From: Gammaproteobacteria bacterium
GTDB taxonomy: Bacteria; Pseudomonadota; Gammaproteobacteria; Steroidobacterales; GCA-2729495
Reading direction: 5' to 3'
NCBI GenBank assembly: GCA_030746435.1
Contig: JASLMV010000006.1
Coordinates: 1-64,000, forward strand
Length of the DNA stretch: 64,000 bases
A program made the position numbers and the translations under genes. Positions 3,146-50,801 of the stretch are shown piece after piece. Numbering within the stretch: position 1 is the first letter of the stretch; the number at the start of each line of letters is the position of its first letter. Under the pieces are notes generated by a model. That model was not told the DNA's origin, searched no databases, and worked only from the letters and a program-made list of their open reading frames with translations.

Positions 3146-3169
3146 GCCGGGGCACAGGCGACTAGCTTT

Positions 3170-4849: not shown

Positions 4850-4947
4850 ATGCACCGCCGGTGGCAAACAAGCCGGAAAAGGCCCCGGCAGAGCTAAACC
4901 ATTGACATAATTACAGGGTTTGGCGGCCCAAAGCTGCTGCAAGCCAC

Positions 4948-4953
4948 TATAAT
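4948..4953 (+). promoter_or_regulatory. Candidate -10 box (TATAAT) upstream of exosortase operon
   Basis: A perfect TATAAT lies 46 bases before the short ORF at 4999 and 213 bases before the exosortase start. The hexamer 17 bases upstream (GGCCCA) does not resemble a -35 box, and the TTGACA at 4902-4907 is 40 bases away, too far to pair with it. If real, the promoter would need an activator. Confidence 0.35.
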
Positions 4954-4998
4954 TGCAGGTCGGGCGGCCTGTGCCGGGCTGTTTGAGACAAGGACTAA

Positions 4999-5073
4999 AT
5001 GTGGATGAATTTGCTTAACTTCCGGAACAGGGGCGGCTCGTATCTGGTGATCGTTAACCCAGGGTGTTACTAA
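4999..5073 (+). CDS. Possible 24-residue leader peptide ORF
   Basis: Short ORF, too small to be sure of, starting MWMNLLNFRNRGG and ending NPGCY. It has an AAGGA ribosome site five bases before its ATG and lies downstream of the TATAAT box at 4948. It could be a translated leader of the exosortase transcript or a chance ORF. No homology is recognised. Confidence 0.25.
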   Translation: MWMNLLNFRNRGGSYLVIVNPGCY

Positions 5074-5165
5074 CGGAGCCCCAACGGCAAAAAAACAAGA
5101 ACAAGAACCACAGTCTGGTAGCACCCGAATGTACCTGGAATTAGCAACACAGTCAGGATGACCTG

Positions 5166-6761: not shown

Positions 6762-6771
6762 GGCCCGGACT

Positions 6772-7887: not shown

Positions 7888-7897
7888 AGGGTCACTT

Positions 7898-10321: not shown

Positions 10322-10332
10322 ACTGGAAGCAA

Positions 10333-12158: not shown

Positions 12159-12186
12159 TTCTGCGCCGTAGGGATATTTGCAACCC

Positions 12187-13659: not shown

Positions 13660-13711
13660 TAGAAGTGGGTGTGCAGGGAATAACGGTCAGCGTTTCAGGC
13701 AGCTTTCATAC

Positions 13712-15604: not shown

Positions 15605-15608
15605 CGGC

Positions 15609-16565
15609 ATGCCGGTCCCGAATTTTTTTCTTGTCGGTGGCCCACGATGTGGTTCGACCTTCCTGTATCACTATCTGGAGCAGCACCCGGATATATTCTT
15701 CTCGGCCCGAAAAGAAACCCATTTTTTCTCAAAAGACTTCCATGCTGAATGCGATGAATTACAAGGGGAACGCGGGAAGGAAATGACAATATTCAGCATA
15801 CGGGATGAGCAGGAATACCTGGATCAGTATGCTGATTGTGGAGCGGCCACAACCATAGGAGATGCTTCTACGAGTCATCTTTATTCAAGGGTAGCAGCGC
15901 AGGGTATCGCCGAATTCAATCCGGAAGCCAAAATCCTGATCAGCATCCGCAACCCGGTAGATCAAATGCGATCATGGCACTCCTACCTGGTGCGACACCG
16001 TGAAGAACCCGTCACAAATTTTGCAGAAGCAGTAAGGCGAAATGCCATGGGCCTGGCTGCTGGCGACTATTCTAATGCTCTTCGGCATGCGACCAGGATT
16101 AACTACCGTTACATTACTGACTACGGTATGCACCTGGAACGGTTCCGACAGTATTTTTCTGATGATCAAATCCTGGTCGTCGTCTTTGATGATTTCATGG
16201 TGAACCCTGCCCGGGAGTTCCGGCAGATTATGGAGTTCCTGGGTGTCGACCCGAACATTGCCGACGAGCTGAACTATGAGAAGCGTAATACCAATAAGCA
16301 GCTCATGTTTGCCAGTTTATTCGGGCGCCTGGTCAACCGTGACTCGTTTCTCCGCAAGATCGGGGATGCAATACTGCCACGTAGTTTCGCGAAGACGATA
16401 CATTCCCGCCTGATTACGGCCTTTACCACCTCTCATGAACGGCCGGATGACAACCGGGAAGCTGTCTCAGAACTGCGGGAAGAACTACGTCCCCGCATAG
16501 CCCGCCTGGGGAGTCTTATTGACCGGGACCTGGTCAGTCTCTGGGGCTTTGACGGCGACCACTGA
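15609..16565 (+). CDS. Sulfotransferase (heparan N-sulfotransferase-like)
   Basis: Second PAPS-dependent sulfotransferase of the cluster. The 5'-phosphosulfate loop is FLVGGPRCGSTFLYHYLEQHP near the N-terminus, ending in KETHFFS, a combination seen in the heparan/NDST-like bacterial family. ISIRNPVDQMRSWHSYL is the 3'-phosphate-binding segment. ATG 15609 is chosen because GAGGA lies eight bases upstream, four bases after the previous stop; a TTG at 15594 would overlap that gene. The protein is 318 residues. It differs clearly from the sulfotransferase at 11292, so two positions may be sulfated. It is the last gene of the polysaccharide cluster. Confidence 0.9.
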   Translation: MPVPNFFLVGGPRCGSTFLYHYLEQHPDIFFSARKETHFFSKDFHAECDELQGERGKEMTIFSIRDEQEYLDQYADCGAATTIGDASTSHLYSRVAAQGIAEFNPEAKILISIRNPVDQMRSWHSYLVRHREEPVTNFAEAVRRNAMGLAAGDYSNALRHATRINYRYITDYGMHLERFRQYFSDDQILVVVFDDFMVNPAREFRQIMEFLGVDPNIADELNYEKRNTNKQLMFASLFGRLVNRDSFLRKIGDAILPRSFAKTIHSRLITAFTTSHERPDDNREAVSELREELRPRIARLGSLIDRDLVSLWGFDGDH

Positions 16566-16652
16566 CTGGTATCATGGCCACGTCCTGCGTGCCCTGGCTC
16601 GCTTCCAGTCTCCACAGTCACTTACACTAGCCTTGAGCTTAAGGTATCCCGC

Positions 16653-18245
16653 ATGTCTACAGAACAATTAGAAGAGCCGCAGAACAGTCACGTACCTCAG
16701 CAGCTGGCAAATGTGGTCGGCGCTGAACATGTTCTGCTGGATGATGAATCACGTACTTTCTACTCGACTGATGTTTACCGTCAGGCCGATATCCTGACAA
16801 CCGCAGTTGTACGTCCCGGGAGCGTCGAGGAACTGCAGGAGATTGTGCGGGTCTGCGCGGCCGCGAACTGCCCGATGGTTGTTCGTGGCGGCGGGGCATC
16901 CTATACCGACGGTTACCTGCCCGTGCGCGACAACACGGTCAGTATAGATACGGTCCGGCTCAAGCAGATCACTATCAACGAGCAGGATATGTATGTCACG
17001 GCGGAAGCCGGTGTGACATGGGCGGAACTGTATACGGCCCTTAAAGAAAAAGGTCTGCGTACTCCGTTCTGGGGGCCTTTTTCCGGCCTTGCAGCGACAG
17101 TCGGCGGCTCCATGTCGCATTACGCCGTCAATTACGGTTCGGGCTTGTATGGCATATCGGCCGAGTCTCTGACCGGAATGGATATAGTACTGGCCAGCGG
17201 TGAACTACTATCAACCGGTTCTGCAGGCGGTAAAGACAACACGCCGTATTATCGTTTTTACGGACCTGATCTGACGGGTATGTTCGTCGGCGATGCCGGT
17301 GCGCTTGGTATTAAGGCGCGCGTGAGTATGCGCCTGATGAATCGACCCGAAGGTTTTGCAGCCTGTTCGTTTGGTTTTGCCGATGGTGAAAGTACGCTCA
17401 AAGCGATGGTCGAAATCGCCCGGCTGGGCGTCGTGTCCCAGAACTTCGGCCTGGACCCCCGGCAGCAAAAAACGGCATTGACCCGAATGGAGTCAGCCGA
17501 TCCCCTTGATGCAGCGAAATCTGTTTTTCTGTCGGCGCGCAATCCGCTCGATGGGTTTATTCAGATAGCGAAAATGGGCCTGGCTGGCCGTAACTTTCTG
17601 AAAAATGCCAGTTACTCGGCACATTTCAGCGCCGAGGGCGTGACCAATGCCGAGGCCAGGGCCAAAATCGCAGAAGTACGCGCAATAGCCCGTAAATACG
17701 GGGCAGAAGTCGCCAATTCAATCCCTGTTTACTTTAATGCCGAGCCGTTCATGGAGCTGCTACCTATATTGGGCCCCAGTGGCGAACGCTGGAAGCCCAC
17801 GCACGGCATCATTGCTTTTTCGAGGCTTTTGCAGCATCACGCCGATTTCGAGGCGATGCTGGATGAGTACCGTGAGCGGATGGCGGCAGCCGGCGTGCAG
17901 CTAACCCGCATGCTGATGTTCTTCAGCACGAATGCTTTTATATATGAACCGACTTTCCTGTGGGATGATTCACAGACCATCTATCACAAGCACGTTTATC
18001 CACCGAAACTTTTGCCCGATGTGCCGACGCATCCGGATAACCCTGAGGGTCGTGCGCTGGTGAAAGAGATTAAACAGCGGATACAGGAATTGTGTATCAA
18101 GAACGGCGCATGCCACATGCAGATCGGTAAAGACTATCCGTACCTGGAAACGCGTAAACCTGAAATGGCAGGGTTGGTCAGAAACCTGAAACACACACTC
18201 GATCCGAAGGGATTAATGAATCCGGGAGCACTCGGCCTGGACTGA
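16653..18245 (+). CDS. FAD-binding oxidoreductase (GlcD/vanillyl-alcohol oxidase type)
   Basis: Flavin-dependent dehydrogenase or oxidase of the PCMH-fold superfamily. Residues about 50-230 form the FAD-binding PCMH domain (VVRPGSVEELQEIVRVCAAANCPMVVRGGG is typical). The C-terminal half is the substrate cap and FAD_oxidase_C-like region, and the protein ends DPKGLMNPGALGLD, the family's usual tail. No signal peptide is present. It is monocistronic: 87 bp after the sulfotransferase and convergent with the gene at 18262. The substrate (hydroxy acid, cresol-like phenol or other) cannot be told from the sequence. Confidence 0.85.
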   Translation: MSTEQLEEPQNSHVPQQLANVVGAEHVLLDDESRTFYSTDVYRQADILTTAVVRPGSVEELQEIVRVCAAANCPMVVRGGGASYTDGYLPVRDNTVSIDTVRLKQITINEQDMYVTAEAGVTWAELYTALKEKGLRTPFWGPFSGLAATVGGSMSHYAVNYGSGLYGISAESLTGMDIVLASGELLSTGSAGGKDNTPYYRFYGPDLTGMFVGDAGALGIKARVSMRLMNRPEGFAACSFGFADGESTLKAMVEIARLGVVSQNFGLDPRQQKTALTRMESADPLDAAKSVFLSARNPLDGFIQIAKMGLAGRNFLKNASYSAHFSAEGVTNAEARAKIAEVRAIARKYGAEVANSIPVYFNAEPFMELLPILGPSGERWKPTHGIIAFSRLLQHHADFEAMLDEYRERMAAAGVQLTRMLMFFSTNAFIYEPTFLWDDSQTIYHKHVYPPKLLPDVPTHPDNPEGRALVKEIKQRIQELCIKNGACHMQIGKDYPYLETRKPEMAGLVRNLKHTLDPKGLMNPGALGLD

Positions 18246-18261
18246 TCGCCGGATATCCCGG

Positions 18262-18651
18262 CTAGTTGAGCAAATGATCGGCTTCCAGGCTGGTTTCGAT
18301 TTCCGTATCGAGCTTTGAATTCTTTGTCGTGTCTGGGCCCCGCTTCTGAATAGCGTACTTTATGCGCAGGATTTCTCCCAGCATACGCACGATCAAAGCC
18401 TTATAACGTGTCGCCTGGCTCGCGGACATCTTGCGGATGGACGCCTGGGGTCCGGTTTCCTGGGGCATCGGTTTATACCGGTACATTGCCTGCCGGAGGC
18501 TGGCAAATTCTGCGCGCAGGTGAGTCGGTAATTCGCCGGGTTCGATCTCATCGAGCTGCGTCAGCCAGGCATCGGTCAGCCGCTGTTTCACCGGGCCTGA
18601 ACCCGTGCACAGACGAACAGCGGCGATAAAACGATCGGATAGATGACGCAT
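18262..18651 (-). CDS. Hypothetical protein, helical, 129 aa
   Basis: I do not recognise this protein. It is predicted to be mostly alpha-helical, basic in its C-terminal half, with no membrane segment or signal. ATG 18651 is preferred because AAGAG lies upstream at ribosome-site distance and the protein then begins MRHLSDRFIAAVRLC; an upstream in-frame ATG at 18714 lacks a ribosome site and would add 21 residues running through an inverted repeat. It stands alone, convergent with the FAD oxidoreductase, with a short GCCGG/CCGGC hairpin between the stops. The inverted repeat at 18691-18710 lies 40-60 bases before its start. Confidence 0.6.
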   Translation of the reverse strand: MRHLSDRFIAAVRLCTGSGPVKQRLTDAWLTQLDEIEPGELPTHLRAEFASLRQAMYRYKPMPQETGPQASIRKMSASQATRYKALIVRMLGEILRIKYAIQKRGPDTTKNSKLDTEIETSLEADHLLN

Positions 18652-18690
18652 CAGATGCTCTTTATTATTGTTCTTGTTGTCGATGCCTTG

Positions 18691-18710
18691 CAGCATACGG
18701 GGGTATGCTG
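18691..18710 (-). promoter_or_regulatory. Inverted repeat upstream of the 129-aa gene
   Basis: Perfect palindrome with 8-bp arms CAGCATAC and GTATGCTG around GGGG. It lies just upstream of the preferred start of the minus-strand gene and is well placed to be an operator or a 5'-leader hairpin. No regulator is known for it. Confidence 0.4.
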
Positions 18711-18714
18711 ACAT

Positions 18715-19076
18715 GTTAAAGCATTATGTGAAATTTTGACCCTAAATCAAGCGCTGCAGCAGTGGTATGGCCGGTGGCCGCTGCCGGGCGGGGTACGGTT
18801 GGCCTCCGGCAGCGGTCCCGGACCCGTCCTGCCCGCCGGCCGGGATCGCCCCCTTAGGGAAGGGAGCTCTCCAGGAGGCCGGATAAGCACCTTGCAGGCG
18901 CTGTGACGGGCGCCGCTGTAGCACCGTTCGGCATCCCGAAGGCTGCGGCTGCGACAGCCCGGCCCGGGATGAGGGGGGTCCGGGCTCCATGTCCTGTCGC
19001 GTTGCGTAATCCGACTATAATGCGCCTCTTTTGTGCGTCCTGATCATCAGGCCTTGGCGCCGGCAGGGAGTCCCTT
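18715..19076. other. 362-bp GC-rich intergenic region between divergent genes
   Basis: Separates the minus-strand hypothetical gene from the plus-strand MFS gene. The middle (18760-18990) is very GC-rich with several short complementary stretches such as GCCGGCCGGG and CCCGGCCCGGG, but I could not assign a named RNA. Its right end holds a promoter-like TATAAT at 19016. No ORF with a convincing start was found. Confidence 0.4.
19016..19021 (+). promoter_or_regulatory. -10 box with GC-rich discriminator before MFS-glnS
   Basis: TATAAT followed directly by GCGCC, the discriminator arrangement of growth-rate-controlled promoters such as rRNA P1. The upstream element at 17 bp spacing (CCTGTC) is a poor -35. 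It lies 56 bases before the MFS start codon and would drive the MFS-glnS pair. Confidence 0.4.
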
Positions 19077-20285
19077 TTGTTCGTATTGTTTCTTATCGTC
19101 TTTATCGGCCTCGCGGGTTTCGGGATCACGCTGCCGTTGTTTCCGTTCTATGCGGATCGCCTTGGCGCGTCACCGGAAATTATTACGCTGACCGTATCTG
19201 CATATTCCCTGGGCCAGTTTGTGGCGGCTCCGGTATGGGGGCGACTGAGTGATTCCTGGGGCCGCAAATGGGTGCTCGTGCTAACGATGCTCGGCTCGGC
19301 AGTTTCGTACCTGATGCTGGGTTACGCTGACGAACTCTGGATACTGCTCGCCAGCCGGGTATTCGGCGGTCTGATGGCCGGCAATATCGCCGCCGCTTTC
19401 GCCTACGTTACCGATATTTCCGATGAGAAAAGCCGTGGCGGTGCCATGGGCATCATCAGTGCTGCGCTGGGTCTCGGTTTCATGCTCGGGCCGGCAATCG
19501 GCGGTTTCCTGGCGGGCAGTGACATGGAGACTGCCAATTTTATGGCGCCGGCAGTCGCTGCCGCAGTGGCCAGCATTATCGCAATGCTGGGTGCCATGTT
19601 TCTGTTGCCCGAAAGCCTGCCCGAAGAGAATCGCAAGCCGCTATTCGGGTCCACAGGCGAGGTCACGGAATCCACGCCCCTGTTTGCCCGGCTGCGTTCC
19701 CGGCCGGTATTGCTGAAGCTGATCATTGTGGCTTTCCTGTTCTATGTATCGATGGCGATGATGGAGGGCATATACCCGCTTTGGGTATACCAGCTTTTTG
19801 CAGTGGGACCGGTGGAAATCGGCTACATGTTTCTGATGATGGGGACGATCTCGGTCTTCGTGCAGGGTTTCCTGATGCGCAAACTGACACCGGTGTTCGG
19901 CGAGAAGACTCTGGTTATTTTTGCGAGCAGCGCCTTTATGCTCGGCATGATCGGTTTTGCTGCCTCGACGAGTACCTGGCATGCCTATTTGGCACTGGCG
20001 GTATTTTCTGTCGGCACGGGTTTCATGAACCCCTGCCTGTCCAGCCTGGTTTCGATGACCGCCGCCACGGACGAGCGCGGTACCGTTATGGGTTGGTTCC
20101 AGTCCGCAAGTGCATTGGGCCGGGTCGTCGGTCCCGCAATGGCCGGCCCCCTTTATGCGCAGGTTGCTTTCGGCGCGCCCTATGTAGTTGGCGCAATCAT
20201 TATTGTTCCCGTTATCCTGTTGCTGGTGACCGTGCCGATAAAGGGCGCGTCTGCAGAAAGTCATGGTGGAGCACACCAGCCCTAA
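19077..20285 (+). CDS. MFS transporter (TetA/DHA1-like)
   Basis: Twelve-span inner-membrane secondary transporter, probably a drug or metabolite exporter. The motif A loop between TM2 and TM3 is GRLSDSWGRKWVL, and a weaker repeat occurs between TM8 and TM9. The start is TTG 19077 with a GGGAG ribosome site upstream; the protein then begins directly in TM1 (MFVLFLIVFIGLAGFG). It ends three bases before glnS, so the two genes are almost certainly co-transcribed, an unusual pairing. The substrate is unknown. Confidence 0.88.
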   Translation: MFVLFLIVFIGLAGFGITLPLFPFYADRLGASPEIITLTVSAYSLGQFVAAPVWGRLSDSWGRKWVLVLTMLGSAVSYLMLGYADELWILLASRVFGGLMAGNIAAAFAYVTDISDEKSRGGAMGIISAALGLGFMLGPAIGGFLAGSDMETANFMAPAVAAAVASIIAMLGAMFLLPESLPEENRKPLFGSTGEVTESTPLFARLRSRPVLLKLIIVAFLFYVSMAMMEGIYPLWVYQLFAVGPVEIGYMFLMMGTISVFVQGFLMRKLTPVFGEKTLVIFASSAFMLGMIGFAASTSTWHAYLALAVFSVGTGFMNPCLSSLVSMTAATDERGTVMGWFQSASALGRVVGPAMAGPLYAQVAFGAPYVVGAIIIVPVILLLVTVPIKGASAESHGGAHQP

Positions 20286-34662: not shown

Positions 34663-36321
34663 ATGGCCCATAACGACAAGAATTCAGAACGGACCAGTCC
34701 TTCGGACTACCTGACGCGGCGAGGGTTTCTCGCAACGAGTGGCGGGCTCGCGTCGCTGGGACTGGCAGCGCTTGCGCATCCCGGGACCCCTGTACGCGCC
34801 AAATCACCCGAAGCAGGGGTCGCAGGACCTCCGTTTAACAGCATACGTGACTGGGTCGCCGCGCTGGATGCGCACGGATTATTGCTGCGAATCCCGGAGG
34901 TCGATCAGGACGCTTATCACGCAACAGGTTTTTTTTACGAGATGACCGACCGGTTTACCTGGTGGGGTGCGCCGGCACTACTCTTCGACCGGGTAAAGAT
35001 CGAAGGTAAGTGGGTGGAAGGGCCGCTGCTCGCCAACCTGCAGGGCCATATGAGTGCAGATGCAATTATCTGGGGACTCGAAGTCACCGGTGATTACAAG
35101 GTCGATTTTCGGCATGCGCGCAACTATATGCGCAAGTTTTACAAGGATAATAGCCACCGCTGGCCCACGATTCCGCCATCGGTAATAGATAGTGAGGCCG
35201 CTGCATGCAAGCAGGTTGTGTTGCGCGGTAATGATATAGATTTGCGCCGCTTTCCATTTGTACAAACCAATCCAGGTGATGGTGGGCGCTACGTAAATTC
35301 CGGCTCGGTCGTAACCCAGGATGCAGGCGGGCGTATTAATCTCGGCACCTATCGATGCCAGATCAAGGGGCCGCGCAAAATCGCCCTGAACCCCGAAACC
35401 ACGCAGACGGGTTACCGGATGATTACCGAGGCGCGCGAACGGGGCGCTAAAAGCTATCCGGTTGCAGTAGTTGTGGGCCAGGATCCGCTGGTATTCATGA
35501 TCAGCAGTACCAAGTTATCCGGTTTCCCGCGCCCGGGAGCGAAGATCCTCGACGAGTTATCGCTGGCGGGTGGCTTGCGAGGCGAGCCGCTCGAGGTAGT
35601 GAAATGTGAAACGAATGACATGCTGGTGCCGGCTCATGCGGAAATGGTTATCGAGGGTGAAGTCCTGTTCGATGAACCGCTGGAGCCGGAGGGTCCGTTT
35701 GGGGAAATGTATGGTTATCTCGGTCCCCGTGACCCGGAAAAATTCTGGATGCATGTGACAGCGGTGACACACCGTGAAAAACCCTGGATTACGAACATGT
35801 TTACCGGGTTGGAGCGCGGCATGGTTGCTGCGCCCTTCTACACGCTGATCGAACATGAACTGCAAGAGAGGTTTCCCTATGTCACCGAGTATTACCAGCC
35901 AACCGATACGATGGGCATCACCTACCTCACGATAAAGAAAACGAAAGCGGGGCAGGGGTTGGAAGTAGGCAAGGCAGTTGCGCGGACCGATCCCATGGCC
36001 AAGATAACCGTAGTACTCGACGACGATGTCGACCTGTTAGATCAGCAGGCTATCCTTCGCGCCATAGTGGCGCGCTGGCAGCCGCATCCGGCGACGCACA
36101 TCGTCGAAGACGGCCGGGGCATCATCATTGATCCCAGCCAGCGCGCGCCCCGCAAGACCAGCAAGATTGCCATCGATGCCACCCGTCAGTTTCCGGAAGA
36201 AGGGGGCCCTGCAGTTTTTGCGGCCAACAGTCGCGACCTCCTGAACGAGCTTCAACCTGATGCGATTGACCAGGCTGCAGCACTGTACGGCAAGTTGCTG
36301 AGCAAGTGGGCCGAGGGTTAG
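34663..36321 (+). CDS. UbiD family decarboxylase with Tat signal
   Basis: Prenylated-FMN-dependent (de)carboxylase homologue acting on aromatic or unsaturated acids. The body shows UbiD features: RLPFVQTNPGDGGRYVNSG-like cofactor segment, ARERGAKSYPVAVVVGQDP, and the ExxPFGEMYGYLG motif, in which the catalytic glutamate lies (EPEGPFGEMYGY). Unusually the N-terminus has a twin-arginine signal: SDYLTRRGFLATSGGLASLGLAALAHPG, then an Ala-x-Ala-like region. Known UbiD enzymes are cytoplasmic, so export of a folded, prFMN-loaded enzyme is implied if the signal works. It has 552 residues against about 490 for a plain UbiD. No ubiX (prFMN synthase) is nearby. It follows the flavin reductase-like gene in the same direction. 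Confidence 0.87.
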   Translation: MAHNDKNSERTSPSDYLTRRGFLATSGGLASLGLAALAHPGTPVRAKSPEAGVAGPPFNSIRDWVAALDAHGLLLRIPEVDQDAYHATGFFYEMTDRFTWWGAPALLFDRVKIEGKWVEGPLLANLQGHMSADAIIWGLEVTGDYKVDFRHARNYMRKFYKDNSHRWPTIPPSVIDSEAAACKQVVLRGNDIDLRRFPFVQTNPGDGGRYVNSGSVVTQDAGGRINLGTYRCQIKGPRKIALNPETTQTGYRMITEARERGAKSYPVAVVVGQDPLVFMISSTKLSGFPRPGAKILDELSLAGGLRGEPLEVVKCETNDMLVPAHAEMVIEGEVLFDEPLEPEGPFGEMYGYLGPRDPEKFWMHVTAVTHREKPWITNMFTGLERGMVAAPFYTLIEHELQERFPYVTEYYQPTDTMGITYLTIKKTKAGQGLEVGKAVARTDPMAKITVVLDDDVDLLDQQAILRAIVARWQPHPATHIVEDGRGIIIDPSQRAPRKTSKIAIDATRQFPEEGGPAVFAANSRDLLNELQPDAIDQAAALYGKLLSKWAEG

Positions 36322-40135: not shown

Positions 40136-40972
40136 ATGGCTGAGCAGAGTACTGTAAAAACTATCCACGAGTTTCTCGAGGACAACCCGAACGTAGATGT
40201 TTCCAAACAGTGGGAGCGTTGCTGGAACATACACGGCAAAATAGCTGACCGAATCCTGGGTTACTTCAGCGATGCCCAACTGCATCCTATTTCCGAGGGC
40301 GCCGACTACTACACATCCCCCGACGGCCAGATGGAAGGAGCCTTTTTCGGCTACACAGGCGGTGGTATTGACTGGTTCGTGCGCTCGTGGCTGGGCAACC
40401 GCAAAGCCAGCATTATCGACATGAATATCAACGTTACGCTGGGGCAGGAAACCAGGGTGCCTAACCTGATGATTATCTTTGGTACCGTACCAAACTTGCT
40501 GTTTTACGCGGATTACGTGGCGCGAGCTGATGTGAAGGTCAGCGAAGATTACGTCAGGAAGTATTACGAGGGTGAGGCTAACCAGGACTATCTCGAATTT
40601 CGCTCTAATACAGATTTCGTCTGGTCCGCAAGCCATGGCCCGGCTATACGCGGGATGCAGTCACCGGTGTGCTCGAGTTACATCACCGAGCTAAGCGACG
40701 AGCATATTGATGTGTGCGAGGCTTACCTCGAGAAATTTGTCGACCGCTGGTTCCGCTGGCTGGACGAGGCTGAAGAAGTACCGCTCGACGAGCGGGATAC
40801 TCTGCAGAACTATGATTTCACCTATCGTGAATACACAAACCGTTCCGATCCCATGAATGTGCTGGCGGAGAGAGTATTTACCCCGGAGAAAGCCAAATTT
40901 ATGTTGGACCGTCGTGCCGGAATCGTGCAGATGGATGCCGATCGCGGCAAGTGGCGTAAATCAGCTGCATAA
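40136..40972 (+). CDS. RCC reductase-like protein (ferredoxin-dependent bilin reductase fold)
   Basis: Resembles red chlorophyll catabolite reductase of plants, of the ferredoxin-dependent bilin reductase superfamily. Points of likeness from memory of the plant protein: IDWFVRSWLGN near residue 80, VPNLMIIFGTV, the YADYVARADVKVSEDYVRKYY block near residue 120-140 (plant: a similar D-Y-L-x-x-Y-Y block), and AIRGMQSPVCSSY followed by a helical C-terminus rich in Arg and Glu. It has 278 residues, close to the mature plant enzyme. No signal peptide is present, so it is cytoplasmic. It stands alone with its own terminator; no haem oxygenase or ferredoxin gene is adjacent. A tetrapyrrole or bilin substrate is inference. 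Confidence 0.55.
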   Translation: MAEQSTVKTIHEFLEDNPNVDVSKQWERCWNIHGKIADRILGYFSDAQLHPISEGADYYTSPDGQMEGAFFGYTGGGIDWFVRSWLGNRKASIIDMNINVTLGQETRVPNLMIIFGTVPNLLFYADYVARADVKVSEDYVRKYYEGEANQDYLEFRSNTDFVWSASHGPAIRGMQSPVCSSYITELSDEHIDVCEAYLEKFVDRWFRWLDEAEEVPLDERDTLQNYDFTYREYTNRSDPMNVLAERVFTPEKAKFMLDRRAGIVQMDADRGKWRKSAA

Positions 40973-41593: not shown

Positions 41594-42781
41594 ATGCATA
41601 AGCCGAGCGCAACCAGCTTCCGATTCGCAGGCCGTAGCCTCGATCCTGTATTGCGGGAACTGCGACTCAGTGATGAATTGCGGGAGGTCGAGCCCAAGGT
41701 ATTCGACCTGATCGAGTATCTGCTCAGGAACCGGGAGCGGGTAGTCAGCAAGGACGAGTTGCAGGACAAGCTCTGGCCCGATGTAGTAGTTACCGAGGCG
41801 TCGCTTTCCCGCGCGATAATGAAGGCCCGGAAGGCGCTGGATGACCACGCTCAGGAGGCGGAGGTTATCAGGACCGTGCCACGCAAAGGATTCCGCTTTG
41901 TAGCGGATGTGCGGGAACCGGCCGGTAGTGTGTTCCTGGCAGAGGGATTATCGGATGTGCATTTTGTCGAGAATGACGGCACTCATATCGCATGGCGTAC
42001 GCTGGGAGAAGGGCCGACTGACGTGTTCTTTGCCCCGGGCTTCGTTTCACACCTTGATACCCGTTATCGCATTCGCGAGGTCACGGAATTCGATACGCAG
42101 CTCGCAAAGGGGAGGAGACTGATTGCCTATGACAAGCGCAGCGTAGGACTTTCAGAGCGCATTGGTGAGCGCCCGACCCTGGAGCAAAACGTGTCGGATA
42201 TGCTTGCCGTGCTTGATGCGGCAAAGAGCAAACGTACGGTCATTTTCGCGGTTTCCGAAAGCGGGCCGGTGGCCTGCAAGTTTGCGGCCAAATATCCCGA
42301 CCGGGTCACGGCACTGATTCTTTACGGCACCTTTGCGCGCGGACTCAAGGATGACGACTATCCGCACATGTGGAGCCATAAAACCTATGACACCTGGGTG
42401 GACAGCCTTATCTCTCAATGGGGCGGAGCGGCATCACTGGAATTGTTTGCTCCGTCGATCGCTAACGATCCGGTCGCACAGGACGGCTGGGCACGCTATC
42501 TGCGCTCGGCCGCAACGCCCGGCGTTATCCGTGGCATCTTCGAAGTGCTGCGCGATATCGATGTGCGCGACGAACTCGACCAGATTCGCTGTCCGGCACT
42601 GGTACTGCACCGCAAGGGCGACAAGTTGGTGCAGTGCTCGGCGGGGCGGGATCTGGCGGAGCGTATCCCGGGGGCTAAATTTGTCGAACTGCCGGGCCAG
42701 GACCACTGGTGGTTCATCGGCGACCAGCAACCCATGCTGCAGGCGATGCAGCCATACCTGCAGCCGGCCTCTGATACTTAG
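41594..42781 (+). CDS. Winged-helix regulator fused to alpha/beta hydrolase
   Basis: Cytoplasmic protein with an N-terminal OmpR/PhoB-type winged helix (residues about 1-107: LRLSDELREVEPKVFDLIEYLLRNRERVVSKDELQDKLWPDVVVTEASLSRAI ... RTVPRKGFRFVADV) joined directly to an alpha/beta-hydrolase domain (about 130-390). The hydrolase has the nucleophile elbow FAVSESGPV, an acid in HRKGDKLVQ and a histidine in PGQDHWWF, so the triad looks intact. There is no membrane span, unlike CadC. The hydrolase domain may serve as a ligand sensor or destroy the inducer. It faces the small secreted protein, a likely target; its stop overlaps that of the hydantoinase-like gene. Confidence 0.85.
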   Translation: MHKPSATSFRFAGRSLDPVLRELRLSDELREVEPKVFDLIEYLLRNRERVVSKDELQDKLWPDVVVTEASLSRAIMKARKALDDHAQEAEVIRTVPRKGFRFVADVREPAGSVFLAEGLSDVHFVENDGTHIAWRTLGEGPTDVFFAPGFVSHLDTRYRIREVTEFDTQLAKGRRLIAYDKRSVGLSERIGERPTLEQNVSDMLAVLDAAKSKRTVIFAVSESGPVACKFAAKYPDRVTALILYGTFARGLKDDDYPHMWSHKTYDTWVDSLISQWGGAASLELFAPSIANDPVAQDGWARYLRSAATPGVIRGIFEVLRDIDVRDELDQIRCPALVLHRKGDKLVQCSAGRDLAERIPGAKFVELPGQDHWWFIGDQQPMLQAMQPYLQPASDT

Positions 42782-44250
42782 TAAGGGCGTTTCAGGTATT
42801 TGCCCGCAGGTTTACCGATAATCCTGCCTTCGTCGTACACGCGTTCGCCACGGAGGAAAGTGGTTTTGACCTTCGCGGTCAGTTCCATACCTTCGAACGG
42901 TGTATGGCCCTGGCTGGACTCCGACTTGCCGGAGTCAACGGTCCAGGTTTCGTTAGGGTCGAGGATGGCGAGGTCGGCATCGAGGCCCTCGGCGATATCA
43001 CCCTTGCTGCGTAACCCGAAGCGCTCGGCGGCGTTGTAGCTCGTGAGTCGCGCCATGTCATTCCAGCTTAAACCGCGCTTGCGGCCTTCGGTCGCAAGTG
43101 CTGCGAGCATGTACTCGGTGCCTCCGAAGCCCGACTTGGCCAGCCAGATATCGCCGGGTTTGCGCTTATCGACTTTCTGCTCATATTTGCAGCAGGCGTG
43201 ATCCGAGCAAACCCAGTCGATTTCACCGGCGATCAGTGCTTCCCACAGGAATTCCACATCTTCGCGCGGGCGTATCGGCGGGTTTACCTTGGCGAGGCAC
43301 CTGGTCTTGGCATCGACATCCAGCATCAGGTGGCCGATCGTGACTTCGCGGCGGAAATTAATATGCGGGAACACATCTGCCATCTGCAGCGCCGCCACCA
43401 CGGCCTTGCGTGAAGTGAGGTGCAGCAGGTTGATGTTCGGAAGATCCGTCTCATTTGCGAGGTACGATGCGATAAAGATCGCCAGCCCTTCCGAGTGCGG
43501 TGGCCGGGCGGCGCTGTAGGCGCGCAGGCCCTTGAGCTTGCCTTGTTTTTCCACCATCTTCGTGTAAGCGGCCATAATCTCGGCAGTTTCACAGTGCAGG
43601 CTTAGCGAGATCTCGTTCGCCTTGTCCGGGTTGCGTTCTATCGCTTTCTTGACGCCACGCATAACGAACTCGAAATGCGCATAGTCATACTTCTCGTCAC
43701 TGCCGATCATCAGGAACTCCGACTGGTTGTCGGATGCGCCGTGTAGTCCGTGACCGCCGTAGAACATAAATATTTTGAATGAGGTCACGCCATGTTTTTC
43801 CACCAGCATCGGGATCTCACGGATATGCTGGCCGGACATCGGTGCGAGGTGATACACGTAATCTACGTGGAAGTTATTCTTCGAAAGTTTCAGTACTTCC
43901 GGGAAGAAATCTTTGTAGGGGCCGCCTTTGTTGAGGTAGTAGCCACCGGTACGTATGTAGTTCAGGCTCGAGGTGACGCCGCCCTGTGCTGCTGCCCGGC
44001 TTTCGGTCACGGCATCTTCGTCTAACGGTGCGTAGATGCCGGTATGCATGTGTGGATCGACAAGACCGGGAAAGGCCAGCCGGCCTTTGCCGTCGAAGGA
44101 CTTTTTCGCCTTGCTCCTCGCAATACCGGGAGCAATCCTGGCGAATTTACCGTTCTTGATAGCGATATCGACTGCATCGACGATCGATGCATGCGGACGA
44201 ACGACGCCAACATTTTTTATTACGAGATCATATTCTTTTGCTGCGGCCAT
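42778..44250 (-). CDS. Dihydropyrimidinase/hydantoinase-like amidohydrolase
   Basis: Cytoplasmic metal-dependent amidohydrolase that would open a cyclic amide (hydantoin, dihydropyrimidine, allantoin or similar). Metal ligands: His-x-His in GLVDPHMHTG, the carboxylated Lys candidate in SFKIFMFYGG, later His in LHCETAE and HLTSRKA, and Asp in CSDHACC. The end carries the usual ADLAILDPN segment. It has 490 residues, as in the dihydroorotase/hydantoinase group. It lies 44 bases after the luciferase-like monooxygenase, in the same direction, suggesting a two-gene catabolic unit. The exact substrate is not predictable. Confidence 0.85.
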   Translation of the reverse strand: MAAAKEYDLVIKNVGVVRPHASIVDAVDIAIKNGKFARIAPGIARSKAKKSFDGKGRLAFPGLVDPHMHTGIYAPLDEDAVTESRAAAQGGVTSSLNYIRTGGYYLNKGGPYKDFFPEVLKLSKNNFHVDYVYHLAPMSGQHIREIPMLVEKHGVTSFKIFMFYGGHGLHGASDNQSEFLMIGSDEKYDYAHFEFVMRGVKKAIERNPDKANEISLSLHCETAEIMAAYTKMVEKQGKLKGLRAYSAARPPHSEGLAIFIASYLANETDLPNINLLHLTSRKAVVAALQMADVFPHINFRREVTIGHLMLDVDAKTRCLAKVNPPIRPREDVEFLWEALIAGEIDWVCSDHACCKYEQKVDKRKPGDIWLAKSGFGGTEYMLAALATEGRKRGLSWNDMARLTSYNAAERFGLRSKGDIAEGLDADLAILDPNETWTVDSGKSESSQGHTPFEGMELTAKVKTTFLRGERVYDEGRIIGKPAGKYLKRPY

Positions 44251-44294: not shown

Positions 44295-45383
44295 CTAGCT
44301 AAATCTAGGCATCACGTGTTCACCGATCAGTTTCAACCCATCCATCGGGTCGTCGAACAGCCTGACGGACAGCTCAGTAAGCCCCGAAGTCGAAAAGGCT
44401 TCGAAGCGTTCCAACTCGCGGTCGATATCGCTGACATCACCCGCAGAAGACATGCCGGCGATAAGCTTATTAATTGTTGCTTCCGGCACGTTGTCAATCT
44501 CGCCGGAGCGTGACCAGTAGGCCTTGAAGAAGCTGTCCCAGTTGTCGACAACTACCTGCACTTCTTCGTCACTGTCGACATGTTCCCGGATATAGTGTTT
44601 GTACTTGGCTGCGATTGCGCCGCGCCAGATCAACTCCCGGCGTGCCTCATACATCGATTTCTCTTTATCTTCCTTAATGTGCCAGGCCCAGAAGTTGCCG
44701 ATGCGAAAATTGTCTGCGGGCCATTCGCGTTTCTCGAAACCCTGGCCCACGTTCTCCATGGCTTCCGGCATCATGTCAACGGTGAAGTCGCTTAGCTGTA
44801 TACCGTCTGCGATGCGCGCGCCCATGCGGACCATCATCGGACCGCTGCAGCAGCCGATGATGAGGGGACCGTTTTCAGCCTTCGCCCAGTCTTGCTGGAA
44901 CGGGCGGGTAATCTGGAAGATCTCCCCTTCATAGGAAAAGTTCATCTTGCCGCTGCGGGCCAGGTTCAGGACTTCGATACATTCCTGCACGCCGCGGACG
45001 CGGCGTTCGGGGTAACGGTTTCCTGAAACAGGATGTTTAACGGGCCATACCGGGGCGTCCTTGTGGATCTTCCAGCCCAGACCGCCCAGCACTCCGCCGC
45101 CGCCGCTGATGCCCACCATGCCGCGGCCGTTCGATGCTTCGTTCAATGTGAGCAGCGCGTTTGCCATTTTCAGCGGGTGTAACTCCCAGGGACTGACAGC
45201 CAGCGGCCCGAGAATAATTTTTGAAGTAACCATGGCGGCCGGCATTAGCGTCATAAAGCCGTCAAAGTTCTGGTGGTAATTCGAAGTCCAGAGTGCCCGA
45301 ACGCCCAGTTTCTCCGCTTCGACGGCCAGTTCGACCACCTGCGACGGGGTGGCGTCACATTCCAGAATGATATCGATATCCAT
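44295..45383 (-). CDS. LLM-class flavin-dependent oxidoreductase
   Basis: Luciferase-like monooxygenase or F420/FMN-dependent reductase of the TIM-barrel family. The start MDIDIILECDATPSQVVELAVEAEKLGVRALWTSN and the glycine-rich stretch GRGMVGISGGGGVLGGLGW match the family. It has 362 residues. It leads a two-gene minus-strand unit with the hydantoinase-like enzyme. In RutA-type systems a luciferase-like monooxygenase opens a pyrimidine ring; the pairing here resembles that idea but the other rut genes are absent. FMN versus F420 use cannot be decided from sequence alone. Confidence 0.85.
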   Translation of the reverse strand: MDIDIILECDATPSQVVELAVEAEKLGVRALWTSNYHQNFDGFMTLMPAAMVTSKIILGPLAVSPWELHPLKMANALLTLNEASNGRGMVGISGGGGVLGGLGWKIHKDAPVWPVKHPVSGNRYPERRVRGVQECIEVLNLARSGKMNFSYEGEIFQITRPFQQDWAKAENGPLIIGCCSGPMMVRMGARIADGIQLSDFTVDMMPEAMENVGQGFEKREWPADNFRIGNFWAWHIKEDKEKSMYEARRELIWRGAIAAKYKHYIREHVDSDEEVQVVVDNWDSFFKAYWSRSGEIDNVPEATINKLIAGMSSAGDVSDIDRELERFEAFSTSGLTELSVRLFDDPMDGLKLIGEHVMPRFS

Positions 45384-47384: not shown

Positions 47385-48629
47385 CTAAATTAATGTACCC
47401 GGCTTTGTGGGCGCGACGCGCACGGCGGTCCCTTCCGGAATTTCATCCGCCTCTTCCGGCGCGATAACCCAGCAGTTCGATTGCATCAGCGGGCTGATCT
47501 TGAAGGATTCCTGTCCCGGCAATACGCGGGCTACCAGGTTGCCTGAATCGTCGGTGCCCGCGCTGGCTTTGCCAAAGAACCGCAGACCGGGTTTTTTACG
47601 CATTGGCTCCGTGAGTTTTGCGGACAGGTAGCGTTCGTCCGGCAACCCGAGCATCGTGCGCAGTGCGGGGACCACGAAGAACCTCAGCCCGACGGCGACG
47701 GCGATAGGGTTGCCGGGTAAACCAAATACACGGGTCCCGTCGGGCAACAATGCGAACAACAGCGGCTTGCCGGGCCGGATTGCGACCCGGTGAAACAGTA
47801 TGTCGGCACCCATCTGTTCCAGTGCAGCCGGCACGAAGTCCATGCGACCCGCCGATACTCCGCCGGTTGTTACGATCATATCCACATCCGGTTGCAGCGA
47901 CTCGATGCGTTCTATCAGTTCATCGGCCGAATCACCCGTACGAAAGACGCCCGCATTTTTTGCCCCATACTCGTCCAATGCTGTCTGCAGATACGGCCCG
48001 TTGGCATCATGGATCATTCCCGGCTGCAATTCGCTTTGCTCGTCACCCAGTTCATTCCCGGTCGTGACGGCCGCAATACGCGGCAGGCACCGCACACTGA
48101 TGCTGGTTGTGCCCGTGGCTGCCAGGCCCATAACCTGGTTTGCGCCGATAACCTGGCCTGCATCCAGCAATAGTGAGCCCTGCGCGAAGTCTTCCCCGGT
48201 CCGGCGCAGGTTCCGGCCACTGGCAACAGATTGCGTCAGTTCGATCGATACCGGCATTCCATCGCTATCGCGTTGCACCTGTACCTGTTCTACAGGAATT
48301 ACTCCGTCATAGCCCGGGGGAAGTGCGGCGCCCGTCATGATTTCCCATGCGGTTCCTGCTTCGGCCTGTGCTGATCCGGTTTTTTCTCCAGCGGTTACTA
48401 CACCCGTAACGGTTAAAACCAGCGGGTTGGTGTCGCTTGCGTCCCCGGTGTCCGCAGCACGCACTGCGTAACCGTCCATCGCAGAATTATCAAAAGGCGG
48501 AACTGCCATCGCAGACTCCAGCTTCACGGCGCTGACGTGGCCGACTGCGTCCGCCGGTGCAAGTTCGATGGTCGGCAGCGGCCCGGTATGGTCCGCAATA
48601 ATCTTCAGTGCCTGGGCGTATTTCAGCAT
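47385..48629 (-). CDS. moeA: Molybdopterin molybdenumtransferase MoeA
   Basis: Inserts molybdate into adenylylated molybdopterin. Motifs: VPPFDNSAMDGYAVRA near the N-terminus, MTGAALPPGYDGVIPVEQV, TTGGVSAGRMDFV and FGLPGNPIAVAVG, all standard for MoeA, with the C-terminal domain present. ATG 48629 (MLKYAQALKII) is preferred; the frame runs on upstream to 48773 but that part is Lys/Arg-rich and unlike the family. The protein is 414 residues. It is convergent with the MFS-DUF411 pair and divergent from the molybdoenzyme genes at 49076. Confidence 0.95.
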   Translation of the reverse strand: MLKYAQALKIIADHTGPLPTIELAPADAVGHVSAVKLESAMAVPPFDNSAMDGYAVRAADTGDASDTNPLVLTVTGVVTAGEKTGSAQAEAGTAWEIMTGAALPPGYDGVIPVEQVQVQRDSDGMPVSIELTQSVASGRNLRRTGEDFAQGSLLLDAGQVIGANQVMGLAATGTTSISVRCLPRIAAVTTGNELGDEQSELQPGMIHDANGPYLQTALDEYGAKNAGVFRTGDSADELIERIESLQPDVDMIVTTGGVSAGRMDFVPAALEQMGADILFHRVAIRPGKPLLFALLPDGTRVFGLPGNPIAVAVGLRFFVVPALRTMLGLPDERYLSAKLTEPMRKKPGLRFFGKASAGTDDSGNLVARVLPGQESFKISPLMQSNCWVIAPEEADEIPEGTAVRVAPTKPGTLI

Positions 48630-49075
48630 GACCGGTCGCTCGTTCCGCACAGGGGGAAGCCCATTGCGAGCATGGTTCTGTGCCTTATTGTAAAAATCAT
48701 GTTCTTCATTCTTGTTATTCCGGGGCAATCTCTTACTGTGCTTGCCTTTGCGGGGACTGGGGCATAGCATCACCCCGGCACATTATTAGCATTGATAAAT
48801 CAACGCCCACCGTAAGCGGGTCACTAATCCGGCGCAACTATGCCTGTTTCTACCAATAGACGCACTTTTCTGCAGGAATTCGCCGGTGCCGGGGCGGCGC
48901 CTTTGCCACTAAAATACGGCCCTGTCGCCGATGCCGGGGACTCTGCCTCGAATTCTTGTCATGGGGCCGACTTGGTTAGCGGTCGCCGGGATGTGCACCG
49001 AACCTGATATATAAAGAGGTTCACCCCTGATTTTGAGCTGTCAGAGAATAATAAGGTTAAGGATAAAGCAATAGT
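48630..49075. other. 446-bp region between moeA and TorD-like gene
   Basis: Contains a 55-codon ORF with a Tat-signal-like start (48840-49007), apparently a gene remnant, and an AT-rich stretch (49008-49075) before the TorD-like gene that probably holds its promoter. The upstream continuation of the moeA frame (48630-48773) has no support as coding. Confidence 0.45.
48840..49007 (+). pseudogene. Remnant of a Tat-exported protein gene (55 codons)
   Basis: Short ORF starting MPVSTNRRTFLQEFAGAGAA: this is a good twin-arginine signal start (polar, RRTFL, then small hydrophobic residues), but the remaining 35 codons resemble no protein and end at a stop. The usual neighbour of a TorD-like chaperone and a molybdoenzyme beta subunit is a Tat-exported catalytic subunit, so this may be the decayed 5' end of that gene. 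It could also be a coincidental ORF. Confidence 0.4.
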
Positions 49076-49750
49076 ATGAGTGATTTGGCGAAAACGGTTC
49101 CGGACGGATCCGGGCGCAGTGTGTCGGGCAGGGATGCTGAGGTTACGGCGGCCGGCCGTTGTTTGTTGTATGCGTTGTTTTCTGACCTCGTCGCTTCGCC
49201 TTTCGATTCCGAGCCCGTGGTTGCCGGCGACACATTTAATGTTGCGGATCTGCCACTACCCTACGAGGTAAATGGTCTGGCCGAGTTACTTGCGGAATGG
49301 TTGCAGATCGATCGCGAGGACCTGAAGCGTGAATACAGCGGTCTGTTCGAAGTCGGCAGTAACGGGCCGCCTGTTCCTATACGTGAAGACCTGCACCGTA
49401 ACCAGCCGGCTGGGCTGAGGGAAGACATTATTCGTTTTTATGATTTTTTCAGTTACGGGCTGGATGAGAAATTTGCGTGGGCGCCGGATCATTTGTCGAT
49501 CGAGTTCGAGTTTATGCATTTCCTCTGTTTTCACGAGGCTGAGCAGGCTCAGGAAGAAGATGGCGATGTGCTTTCATTTCAACTTGCGCAGGCTGATTTC
49601 GCAGAGCGCCATCTGTGTAACTGGGTACCGGAACTGGTCGAACGCATTAATCAGCAGCAACCGGATGCGTTCTATGGAAAACTTTTTGAAGTGATTAGCG
49701 AGTGTTTACTGCGTGATTTCGAGTGGCAGGCAGGAACCATAAAAGAGTAG
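49076..49750 (+). CDS. TorD/DmsD-like molybdoenzyme chaperone
   Basis: Cytoplasmic chaperone that binds the Tat leader of an apo-molybdoenzyme and aids cofactor insertion. All-helical; key stretches are REYSGLFEVGSNGPPVPIREDL, FYDFFSYGLDEKFAWAPDHLSIEFEFMHFLC and the C-terminal helices, matching the EbdD/DdhD/SerD-type branch of the TorD family. It has 224 residues. The expected partner beta subunit follows 49 bases later, but no catalytic alpha or haem gamma subunit is found next to them. Confidence 0.82.
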   Translation: MSDLAKTVPDGSGRSVSGRDAEVTAAGRCLLYALFSDLVASPFDSEPVVAGDTFNVADLPLPYEVNGLAELLAEWLQIDREDLKREYSGLFEVGSNGPPVPIREDLHRNQPAGLREDIIRFYDFFSYGLDEKFAWAPDHLSIEFEFMHFLCFHEAEQAQEEDGDVLSFQLAQADFAERHLCNWVPELVERINQQQPDAFYGKLFEVISECLLRDFEWQAGTIKE

Positions 49751-49799
49751 TACGACTGATGATTTACGGAGATGCCCCGGGGCGAGCCAGGAGCGGGAA

Positions 49800-50801
49800 A
49801 TGACGGACAAGCAAGTAGCCATGGTAATAGACCTGAACAAGTGCATTGGTTGCCAGGCGTGCACGGCGGCGTGCAAGAGCCTGTGGACGGACGAGCCGGG
49901 CCAGGAGTACATGCTGTGGAACAATGTGGAGACCAAGCCGGGGCCTGGTTATCCGCGCTACTGGGAAGACGGTGGCGGAGGCTGGAACGAGGCGGGCACG
50001 GGGCTTAAGCCCGGGGTATTGCCGGTGAAGGAAGACCACGGCGAGGAGATAGGCTTAAACCACCGGGCGGTGTACTTCGAGGGCACCGAGACGCGGTTGC
50101 AGCAGGAACGCCCGATGGGCAAGGGGGCCAACTGGGACGAGGACACCTCCAGCGGGGATTACCCGAACAACTACCATTTTTACGTACCCAGGTTGTGTAA
50201 CCACTGCACGAAGCCGGCGTGCCTGGAGGCCTGCCCGGTGCGGGCGATCTACAAGCGCGAGGCTGACGGGGTGGTGCTGGTGGACCAGGACGCGTGCCAG
50301 GGCTTCCGGGAGTGCAACAAGGCCTGCCCGTACGACAAGGTGTACTTCAACTACGTGACGGGCAAGAGCCAGAAGTGCATCTTCTGTTTCCCGCGGCTGG
50401 AGGAGGGTGTGGCGCCGGCCTGTGCCCGGCAATGCCCGGGGCGGCTGCGTTTTGTGGGCTTTTTAGAGGACGCTGACGGGCCGATCGACAAGCTGGTGAA
50501 CCAGTGGCGGGTGGCCTTACCCCTGCACCCGGAGTACGGCACCGAGCCGAATGTCTTTTACGTGCCGCCGATATTGCCGCCGAAGTTTGACGAGCAGGGC
50601 AACTTCGTGGACGAGAGCGATCCCCGGGTGCCGCTGGAGTACCTGCGGAGCCTGTTCGGTACCCGGGTGGATGCAGCACTGATAACGCTGCACGAGGAGC
50701 TGGAGAAGAAGCAGGCGGGGCAGGCCAGTGAGCTGATGGACCTGTTGATTGCGAAAGAGTGGAAGTCACTCTTTGGCATCCCCGATGTCAAGGTCGCCTG
50801 A
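49800..50801 (+). CDS. Molybdoenzyme beta subunit, Fe-S (EbdB/DdhB/SerB-like)
   Basis: Electron-transfer subunit of the type II DMSO-reductase family (ethylbenzene, dimethylsulfide, selenate, chlorate or steroid C25 enzymes). Four cluster motifs are visible: CIGCQACTAACK near residue 15, CNHCTKPACLEACP near 130, CQGFRECNKACP near 160, where Phe replaces the second Cys so that cluster is probably [3Fe-4S], and CIFCFPRLEEGVAPACARQCP. The 333-residue length is normal. There is no signal peptide; such subunits ride out with their Tat-tagged alpha partner, which is missing here. The gene is richer in G/C at third positions than its neighbours, by eye. Confidence 0.9.
   Translation: MTDKQVAMVIDLNKCIGCQACTAACKSLWTDEPGQEYMLWNNVETKPGPGYPRYWEDGGGGWNEAGTGLKPGVLPVKEDHGEEIGLNHRAVYFEGTETRLQQERPMGKGANWDEDTSSGDYPNNYHFYVPRLCNHCTKPACLEACPVRAIYKREADGVVLVDQDACQGFRECNKACPYDKVYFNYVTGKSQKCIFCFPRLEEGVAPACARQCPGRLRFVGFLEDADGPIDKLVNQWRVALPLHPEYGTEPNVFYVPPILPPKFDEQGNFVDESDPRVPLEYLRSLFGTRVDAALITLHEELEKKQAGQASELMDLLIAKEWKSLFGIPDVKVA

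Follow-up and report, generated by a model that had tools for sequence, protein, structure and literature searches.

What might a relative of plant red chlorophyll catabolite reductase (RCCR) do in a non-phototrophic gammaproteobacterium? In plants, this enzyme detoxifies chlorophyll whose ring has been opened: with ferredoxin it reduces RCC, a product of PaO, to pFCC. The question is raised by one gene on a stretch of 64,000 nucleotides, the whole of which we call the window. The original prediction saw in its product an RCCR-like protein of the ferredoxin-dependent bilin reductase (FDBR) family that might reduce a linear tetrapyrrole, either taken from algae or made from haem. Profile, fold and tree analyses upheld the RCCR likeness and the FDBR fold; a bilin made from haem became unlikely with the haem oxygenase search described below. 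The finding is real and wider-spread than a single odd gene.

An RCCR-lineage protein with the FDBR fold

The reading frame is intact, with 278 codons and no internal stops (Table 1). PF06405 (RCC_reductase) was the sole meaningful Pfam match of the window protein, which on its own scored E=1.8e-5 and 24.5 bits against a curated cut-off of 24.9; in the frame search of the genome, the gene was counted above this cut-off. At E≤1e-3 the profile matched 40/40 aligned family proteins, the window protein counted in, and the homology is thus significant by the very profile that the original prediction had named. NCBIfam profiles gave nothing relevant for the window protein, and a tblastn search of plasmid records at 0.01 returned 0 matches. 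Among PDB sequences searched with phmmer, the AtRCCR chains were the best matches (E about 5e-5). A family profile built from the 40 rows reached AtRCCR at 6e-18 over profile positions 37–258, that is, over the whole domain, followed by GtPEBB (1.2e-5) and phytochromobilin synthase (1.4e-5). The canonical FDBR profile, PF05996, had no match in the window protein and matched 4/40 of the aligned proteins at E≤1e-3. The three blocks that had been named as RCCR-like all align to AtRCCR: HMMER paired IDWFVRSW with IDFVIGSW, YADYVARAD..DYVRKYY with LILDLPHRKD..DYLKEYY, and RGMQSPV with RSAFSPT (RSAVSPT in the F218V chain).

Table 1. Features of the RCCR-lineage gene and its neighbours, in window coordinates.
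Feature	Position	Strand	Remarks
UbiD-family decarboxylase	34663..36321	+	40-42% identical to UbiD near R3 paralogue in seven relatives; tentative link
RCCR-lineage protein, group A, 278 aa	40136..40972	+	Profile, PDB sequence, fold, tree
Block IDWFVRSW, residues 78-85	40367..40390	+	W80, S84 invariant 40/40
Ile114 codon, fifth residue past invariant Pro109	40475..40477	+	I 24, V 9, A 7 of 40; never acidic
Block YADYVARADVKVSEDYVRKYY, residues 124-144	40505..40567	+	R, D, DY, YY placed as in AtRCCR; R130 40/40
Block RGMQSPV, residues 172-178	40649..40669	+	R172, P177 invariant
Asp238 codon, motif R..DPxN	40847..40849	+	D in 40/40
Allantoinase/hydantoinase-like cyclic-amide hydrolase	42778..44250	-	TIGR03178 E 1.2e-63, below equivalog cut-off; tentative
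Luciferase-like (LLM) flavin oxidoreductase	44295..45383	-	LLM cluster near group A in 7/18 loci; large family, weak link

The AlphaFold2 model of the window protein (pLDDT 92.3, pTM 0.90) gave 45 Foldseek matches at E≤0.001, comprising RCCR and bilin reductases, the best being 3agb at 2.1e-12. By VIA-align, phytochromobilin synthase (Z 25.6), GtPEBB (25.4) and RCCR (25.2) are tied. Residues 23 to 267/268 superpose on AtRCCR 56 to 318/319, with an rmsd of 2.5 over 243 for 2zxk and a sequence identity of 16–17% in the structural alignment to RCCR. The predicted structure thus bears out the alpha-beta-alpha sandwich of bilin reductases that had been expected. Coproporphyrinogen oxidase (CPO) was rejected as a closer fold, with Z scores of 11.8–17.0 that lie under those of RCCR, PebB, HY2, PebA, PcyA and PebS among the matches listed; PcyX (5owg, Z 15.1) is the only bilin reductase within the CPO range among these matches. 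A viral structure library yielded two matches below 0.001, one to an unnamed protein (1.8e-8), the other to a phage protein that bears the annotation PcyA (2.7e-4). The FDBR-like fold also occurs in a subunit of the plastid Ycf2-FtsHi (8xqw_H, Z 22.0) and Orf2971-FtsHi (8xks_P, Z 21.3) motors.

The bacterial proteins fall into several types. Group A, the window type, shares 74–84% identity with the window protein, against 47–56% for group B, which is distinct from it; further types are termed R1, R2 and R3. In a tree with long branches and a single plant row, group A has one origin (100/100), A, B and the clustered R1 type come together in one clade (97/96), and AtRCCR joins this A/B/R1 clade (91/84), with seven R2-type and 12 R3-type rows outside. 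Between the window gene and five group A homologues, dN was 0.095–0.175, and dS was 2.5 and 5.5 in two comparisons and, being saturated, not computable in three. It is nearly certain that the window protein belongs to the RCCR lineage and has the FDBR fold.

One of two catalytic acids is kept

Two aspartates of GtPEBB are essential: Asp99, which lies on the sheet, and Asp219, part of a C-terminal loop (PMC6755814). Our family-profile alignment placed them at Ile114 and Asp238 of the window protein, respectively. We take these positions to correspond to Glu154 and Asp291 of AtRCCR, residue numbers that reportedly go back to Sugishima et al. 2010 and that agree with an offset of 43 in the structure chain numbering; the HMMER alignment gaps at Glu154, the position of which was set by the conserved Pro. 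PcyA Asp105 presumably occupies the same place as Ile114. Its role is taken from PMC10151467.

The C-terminal Asp of RCCR was kept in all 40 aligned proteins, and an acid at the first position was found in none of them, a hydrophobic Ile, Val or Ala standing there in place of RCCR Glu154. Of the GtPEBB pair, the second Asp is kept in the window protein and the first replaced, which leaves it with half of the canonical acid pair. With the first acid lost, we claim membership of the RCCR lineage and not RCCR activity. Gln175 stands at the place of AtRCCR Phe218, where the 40 proteins have Q 9, M 15, L 8, I 5, V 2 and T 1. In the 12 R3 rows, the second Asp is kept throughout, and the first-acid place holds Asp in four (L188, L192, L171, L165) and Gln in eight from the window's family, the R3 protein of the window's own genome counted in.

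The replacement of the first acid in 40/40 proteins could mean that the fold was kept and the reaction lost, leaving a non-catalytic protein that binds a tetrapyrrole or other small molecule or is structural, as the FDBR-like subunit of the Ycf2-FtsHi motor would illustrate. We consider this improbable: the polar residues R130, N149, R172, R231, D238 and N241 are each kept 40/40, vascular-plant HY2 is active by way of a different Asp although it, too, is without the first one (PMC6755814), and pre-1 PcyAs are described as lacking Glu76, His88 and Asp105 (PMC10151467). Because HY2 works in this way, reduction by the window protein is still allowed despite the lost acid.

The nearest known protein, both by profile (6e-18) and in the tree, is RCCR/ACD2 (PF06405; 3aga, 3agb, 2zxk). 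It shares fold, length, the three signature blocks and the C-terminal Asp, but has Glu154 where the bacterial proteins have Ile, Val or Ala, and Phe218 where the window protein has Gln. In contrast to plant RCCR, the bacterial proteins are paralogous and have relatives in catabolic clusters, and no PaO partner was found in 24 family genomes. PebB, HY2 and PcyA (PF05996; 6qwq, 6kmd, 2d1e) likewise share the fold (Z 21.4–25.6), PebB the second Asp, and PebB and HY2 match the family profile remotely (E about 1e-5); the window protein differs in having no PF05996 match and no counterpart of the catalytic Asp99/Asp105, and in 24 genomes of its family no haem oxygenase passed the cut-off. The pre-PcyA reductases, as described in PMC10151467, resemble the present case as FDBR-superfamily proteins of non-phototrophs with Fe-S protein genes close by, pre-1 being without Asp105, but they form part of the PcyA branch, and their reported associations are with BBAG globins, V4R proteins and, in some cases, HO. 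Proteins of the RCCR family from Nostoc and Anabaena, those of Nostoc discussed in 2009, are also prokaryotic PF06405 members, two of them adjoining in Nostoc; their description sets them apart as cyanobacterial and plant-symbiotic (PMC2716323). RCCRs "and related sequences" serve as the outgroup in published FDBR trees (PMC10151467, PMC13193486). The open-access literature searched, at partial coverage, yielded neither a functional study of bacterial RCCR-lineage proteins nor a bacterial chlorophyll-catabolic gene cluster.

Paralogues, gene neighbourhoods and catabolic clusters

The original prediction saw one gene, which is there; the genome in fact has three paralogues, the window gene and copies on contigs C8 and C22, with a wider catabolic context outside the window. 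The C8 paralogue scored 41.5 bits with PF06405. The C22 paralogue was found with the profile of the more divergent sister type R3 (2.5e-55); its PF06405 match is below the cut-off (E 0.002), and its model has the FDBR fold (pLDDT 90.5), with RCCR as the top match (3.1e-9). At 1e-3, PF06405 matched in 32/60 relatives, 60/296 genomes of the order, 4/369 of the class and 1/398 of the phylum, the own genome being one of the matching rows at every level, and in 0/14 control genomes. The matches in congeners are not all of group A or B, those at G001:C2 and G003:C109 being R3-type. A scan of named genomes gave 87 relatives, of which 80 were kept; carriers include Rheinheimera, Paraglaciecola, Thalassotalea, Thalassomonas, Microbulbifer, Aestuariicella and Halioglobus.

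We took 82 loci and called genes with weight on homology; one locus, L140, was dropped for want of an anchor. The remaining 81 comprise 18 of group A and 63 of other types, some with R3-type genes only, and since short contigs and gene fragments occur among them, the neighbourhood counts are lower bounds. The 18 group A loci have no well conserved neighbour, the best being the large LLM family. At the 63 other loci, the gene is followed by a response regulator and then a kinase in 27 each. In 24 loci a [2Fe-2S] ferredoxin gene follows, and the strand is shared in every case; an SDR gene lies upstream in 13/63 and an epimerase gene in 13/63. These loci are kin, so the shared order is conserved synteny and not independent evidence. 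The own C8 contig has the same order, RCCR gene, response regulator, kinase and, further on, the [2Fe-2S] ferredoxin (Fer2 E 5.3e-8). At this locus (L032, 9834-14548), the genes after the group B gene encode an OmpR-type regulator, a histidine kinase, a protein resembling outer-membrane proteins, a small protein containing Cys and the ferredoxin; a thioredoxin-like [2Fe-2S] protein is encoded upstream.

In the window itself, the UbiD and allantoinase-like genes lie less than 6 kb from the RCCR gene, a suggestive tie that for the allantoinase-like gene comes from position and chemistry only. Elsewhere in the window, a MoeA-like gene adjoins a gene with ferredoxin-type Cys motifs, by eye a molybdoenzyme electron-transfer subunit (47385-50801), and positions 1004-16565 look by eye like a polysaccharide/exosortase-type export region, with an exosortase-like gene at 5166-6761.

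The C22 paralogue lies among genes for an epimerase, UbiD, two CN-hydrolases, an isochorismatase, a PuuE-like protein, a CoA transferase (CaiB) and an MFS protein. An EAL/GGDEF protein is also encoded between the genes of this cluster (L226, C22:48900-68890, 4379-19705). By gene content, the own genome appears to hold only a reduced version, on C22, of a far larger catabolic cluster. The latter was found in Rheinheimera sp. 1928-s (402886-458245, about 55 kb), where it holds the R1 gene; the majority of its genes are shared with Paraglaciecola hydrolytica, and many are also present in Thalassomonas sp. M1454 and a Nevskiaceae MAG. It has two clear RCCR-like genes and a third, FDBR-like gene below the Pfam cut-offs. 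Pfam and NCBIfam assign its oxidative genes to a Rieske protein (VanA_C), a rubredoxin-rubredoxin reductase fusion, an FAD monooxygenase and an acyl-CoA-dehydrogenase-like protein, and its hydrolases to CN-hydrolase, isochorismatase-like and PuuE-like proteins; LeuC/LeuD-like, PEP mutase/PrpB-like, Amdase/EutA-like, HMGL and CoA transferase III (CaiB-like) genes are also present. One further gene we presume to be DUF1838, the Pfam match itself being on a Halioglobus gene. The superfamilies of these cluster enzymes also include maleamate amidase NicF and maleate isomerase NicE, as well as the dimethylmalate enzymes by which nicotinate is fermented. The cluster Rieske protein was rejected as PaO, being of the VanA_C type with methylxanthine demethylases and SxtT/SxtDIOX as its nearest PDB relatives.

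The chlorophyllase profile PF07224 scored 48.6 bits on a cluster hydrolase, against a cut-off of 26, and passed its cut-off in 6/6 orthologues of this esterase scanned. PAF-acetylhydrolase scores nearly equal those of chlorophyllase on these esterases and are higher in 1/6, and the name chlorophyllase is therefore a hint. LeuC 1 and HMGL 1 pass the NCBIfam cut-offs for 3-isopropylmalate dehydratase and HMG-CoA lyase, and from their sequences may belong to ordinary leucine metabolism; the same genome has further LeuC-like genes, one of them scoring higher. The isomerase, LeuCD, HMGL, CaiB, isochorismatase and PuuE-like modules are doubled, the second copies mostly recognised by homology, and this doubling would fit a need to process two ring types. 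On own contig C11, a set of LeuC-like, CaiB and HMGL-like genes shares 63%, 55% and 64% identity, respectively, with the second of the Rheinheimera sets. In the 20 kb taken there (L185, C11:40000-59990; set at C11 50304-54988), no RCCR gene was noted.

Smaller versions occur in other relatives. Within about 30 kb, a genome of the window's order (G892) combines R1, R3 and a further, divergent RCCR-type gene (36% to R1) with genes for Rieske and flavin oxygenases and hydrolases. Two loci from another family of the class (L170, L171) show the cluster in compact form, with genes of the R2 and R3 types; in L171 the Rieske gene lies at the contig edge. The isomerase of the large cluster was found in 0/5 own-genus genomes and in 1/24 family genomes, that one without a PF06405 match, so by this one marker the full cluster is not in the window's family. 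Links within the clusters are partly inherited synteny.

The same gene content could serve the breakdown of another N-ring compound, one resembling hydantoin, a purine or a lactam, or an N-heterocycle derived from oil, for which FDBR-like reductases would have been recruited. Many N-heterocycles would be suitable targets for the products of PuuE/allantoinase-like, isochorismatase (RutB/BiuH-like), CN-hydrolase and UbiD genes, the lost first catalytic acid suggests altered chemistry, and a genome announcement lists Rheinheimera sp. 1928-s among isolates obtained from oil-sands process water (PMC10720427). We nevertheless find this reading rather unlikely, as the known families sharing the fold (FDBR, RCCR, CPO) bind tetrapyrroles (PMC13193486), the clusters carry the chlorophyllase-family esterase, and some hold a paralogue type keeping both catalytic Asp.

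Substrate supply and proposed function

Haem oxygenase (PF01126) exceeded the cut-off in 0/24 family genomes, the own genome included, with one sub-threshold match (G010, 9.8e-4), in a search positive in 3/14 controls. The haem-oxygenase route is accordingly rejected for the window's family at the Pfam cut-off, and the suggestion of the original prediction that the bilin is made from haem is unlikely. A haem-derived bilin reductase making an intracellular chromophore or antioxidant would have a precedent in the pre-PcyA FDBRs of heterotrophic bacteria, reported as active enzymes (PMC10151467), and would go with the histidine kinase gene beside the C8 paralogue; given the haem oxygenase result, we regard it as very improbable. 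PaO (PF08417) was found in 0/24 family genomes, the own genome again included, with 2/14 controls positive and one of these over the cut-off. Both searches were confined to the 24 genomes of the family. Staygreen gave 0/22 matches, which is uninformative, the control being silent too.

Photo_RC had no match in the own genome and four congeners, in keeping with the earlier description of the host as a non-phototroph. With no haem oxygenase over the cut-off and no PaO found in the 24 family genomes, and no reaction-centre match in the own genus, a bilin would have to be supplied from outside the cell or by a ring-opening enzyme that has escaped recognition; the other earlier suggestion, a tetrapyrrole taken from algae, may hold and is favoured by the catabolic clusters of relatives. 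Reaction-centre genes were present in 2/20 family genomes tested (G026:C24:21096-22763, L245; G028:C24:76858-78531, L244), so that some relatives may be phototrophs; both genomes carry RCCR-lineage genes.

We propose, with about even confidence, that the RCCR-lineage gene may act in the reductive catabolism of an imported open-chain tetrapyrrole, as one step of a catabolic route. Its product would be a cofactor-free, ferredoxin-type reductase of the RCCR lineage, the FDBR pocket of which would hold an opened chlorophyll or phycobilin product from outside; electrons would be added singly, with Asp238 handling protons, and in the wider route oxygenases would carry out the opening of the pigment, the breakdown of the rings being completed by imidases, amidases and lyases. 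The parts of this proposal differ in strength. A reductase with an iron-sulphur donor is likely, and the same-strand [2Fe-2S] ferredoxin gene of the C8-type loci (24/63) points to ferredoxin as that donor. The chances that a tetrapyrrole is the substrate are balanced, such a ligand being favoured by the tetrapyrrole-binding families of this fold. A chlorophyll or phycobilin source within a full degradation route is a tentative suggestion.

The three RCCR relatives may belong to a bacterial route, so far undescribed, that digests chlorophyll-like pigments. In its most extended and somewhat doubtful form, this would mean that Gammaproteobacteria, and perhaps, judging by one MAG titled Anaerolineaceae, others, own a dedicated pathway for mineralising tetrapyrroles. 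A TonB receptor and esterases would admit and dephytylate a chlorophyll-type pigment, Rieske and flavin oxygenases would open it, and two or three RCCR/FDBR-type reductases would tame the coloured chain. The rings would leave as alkyl-maleimides and reach central metabolites through PuuE-like imidases, isochorismatase amidases, and maleate-isomerase-like, LeuCD-like, CaiB and HMGL enzymes. Maleimides and hematinic acid are chlorophyll breakdown products for which reports from senescent leaves and lake sediments are cited in PMC7318184; its own samples contained hematinic acid and no maleimides. According to the same source, about 10^12 kg of chlorophyll is made and degraded each year, and what happens to its breakdown products further on, in herbivory and in abiotic decay, is largely open. 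The cultured strains and about 50 candidate genes, including three RCCR/FDBR-type reductases, make the question of bacterial chlorophyll breakdown testable. The bacterial family also bears on the origin of plant RCCR, which, if such a pathway exists, would be a single offshoot of a more ancient catabolic family of bacteria.

Two records stand apart by their titles. The RCCR gene of CAMCBU010000002.1 (L128), titled Klebsiella pneumoniae, groups in the tree with that of a Steroidobacteraceae MAG (L131), and the title looks wrong. In a MAG titled Anaerolineaceae (Chloroflexota), an R1-type gene (L152; VFJR01000102.1, 7680-8492) adjoins an Amdase-like isomerase gene and occurs with CaiB and Rieske homologues, which suggests horizontal transfer or a mis-binned contig.
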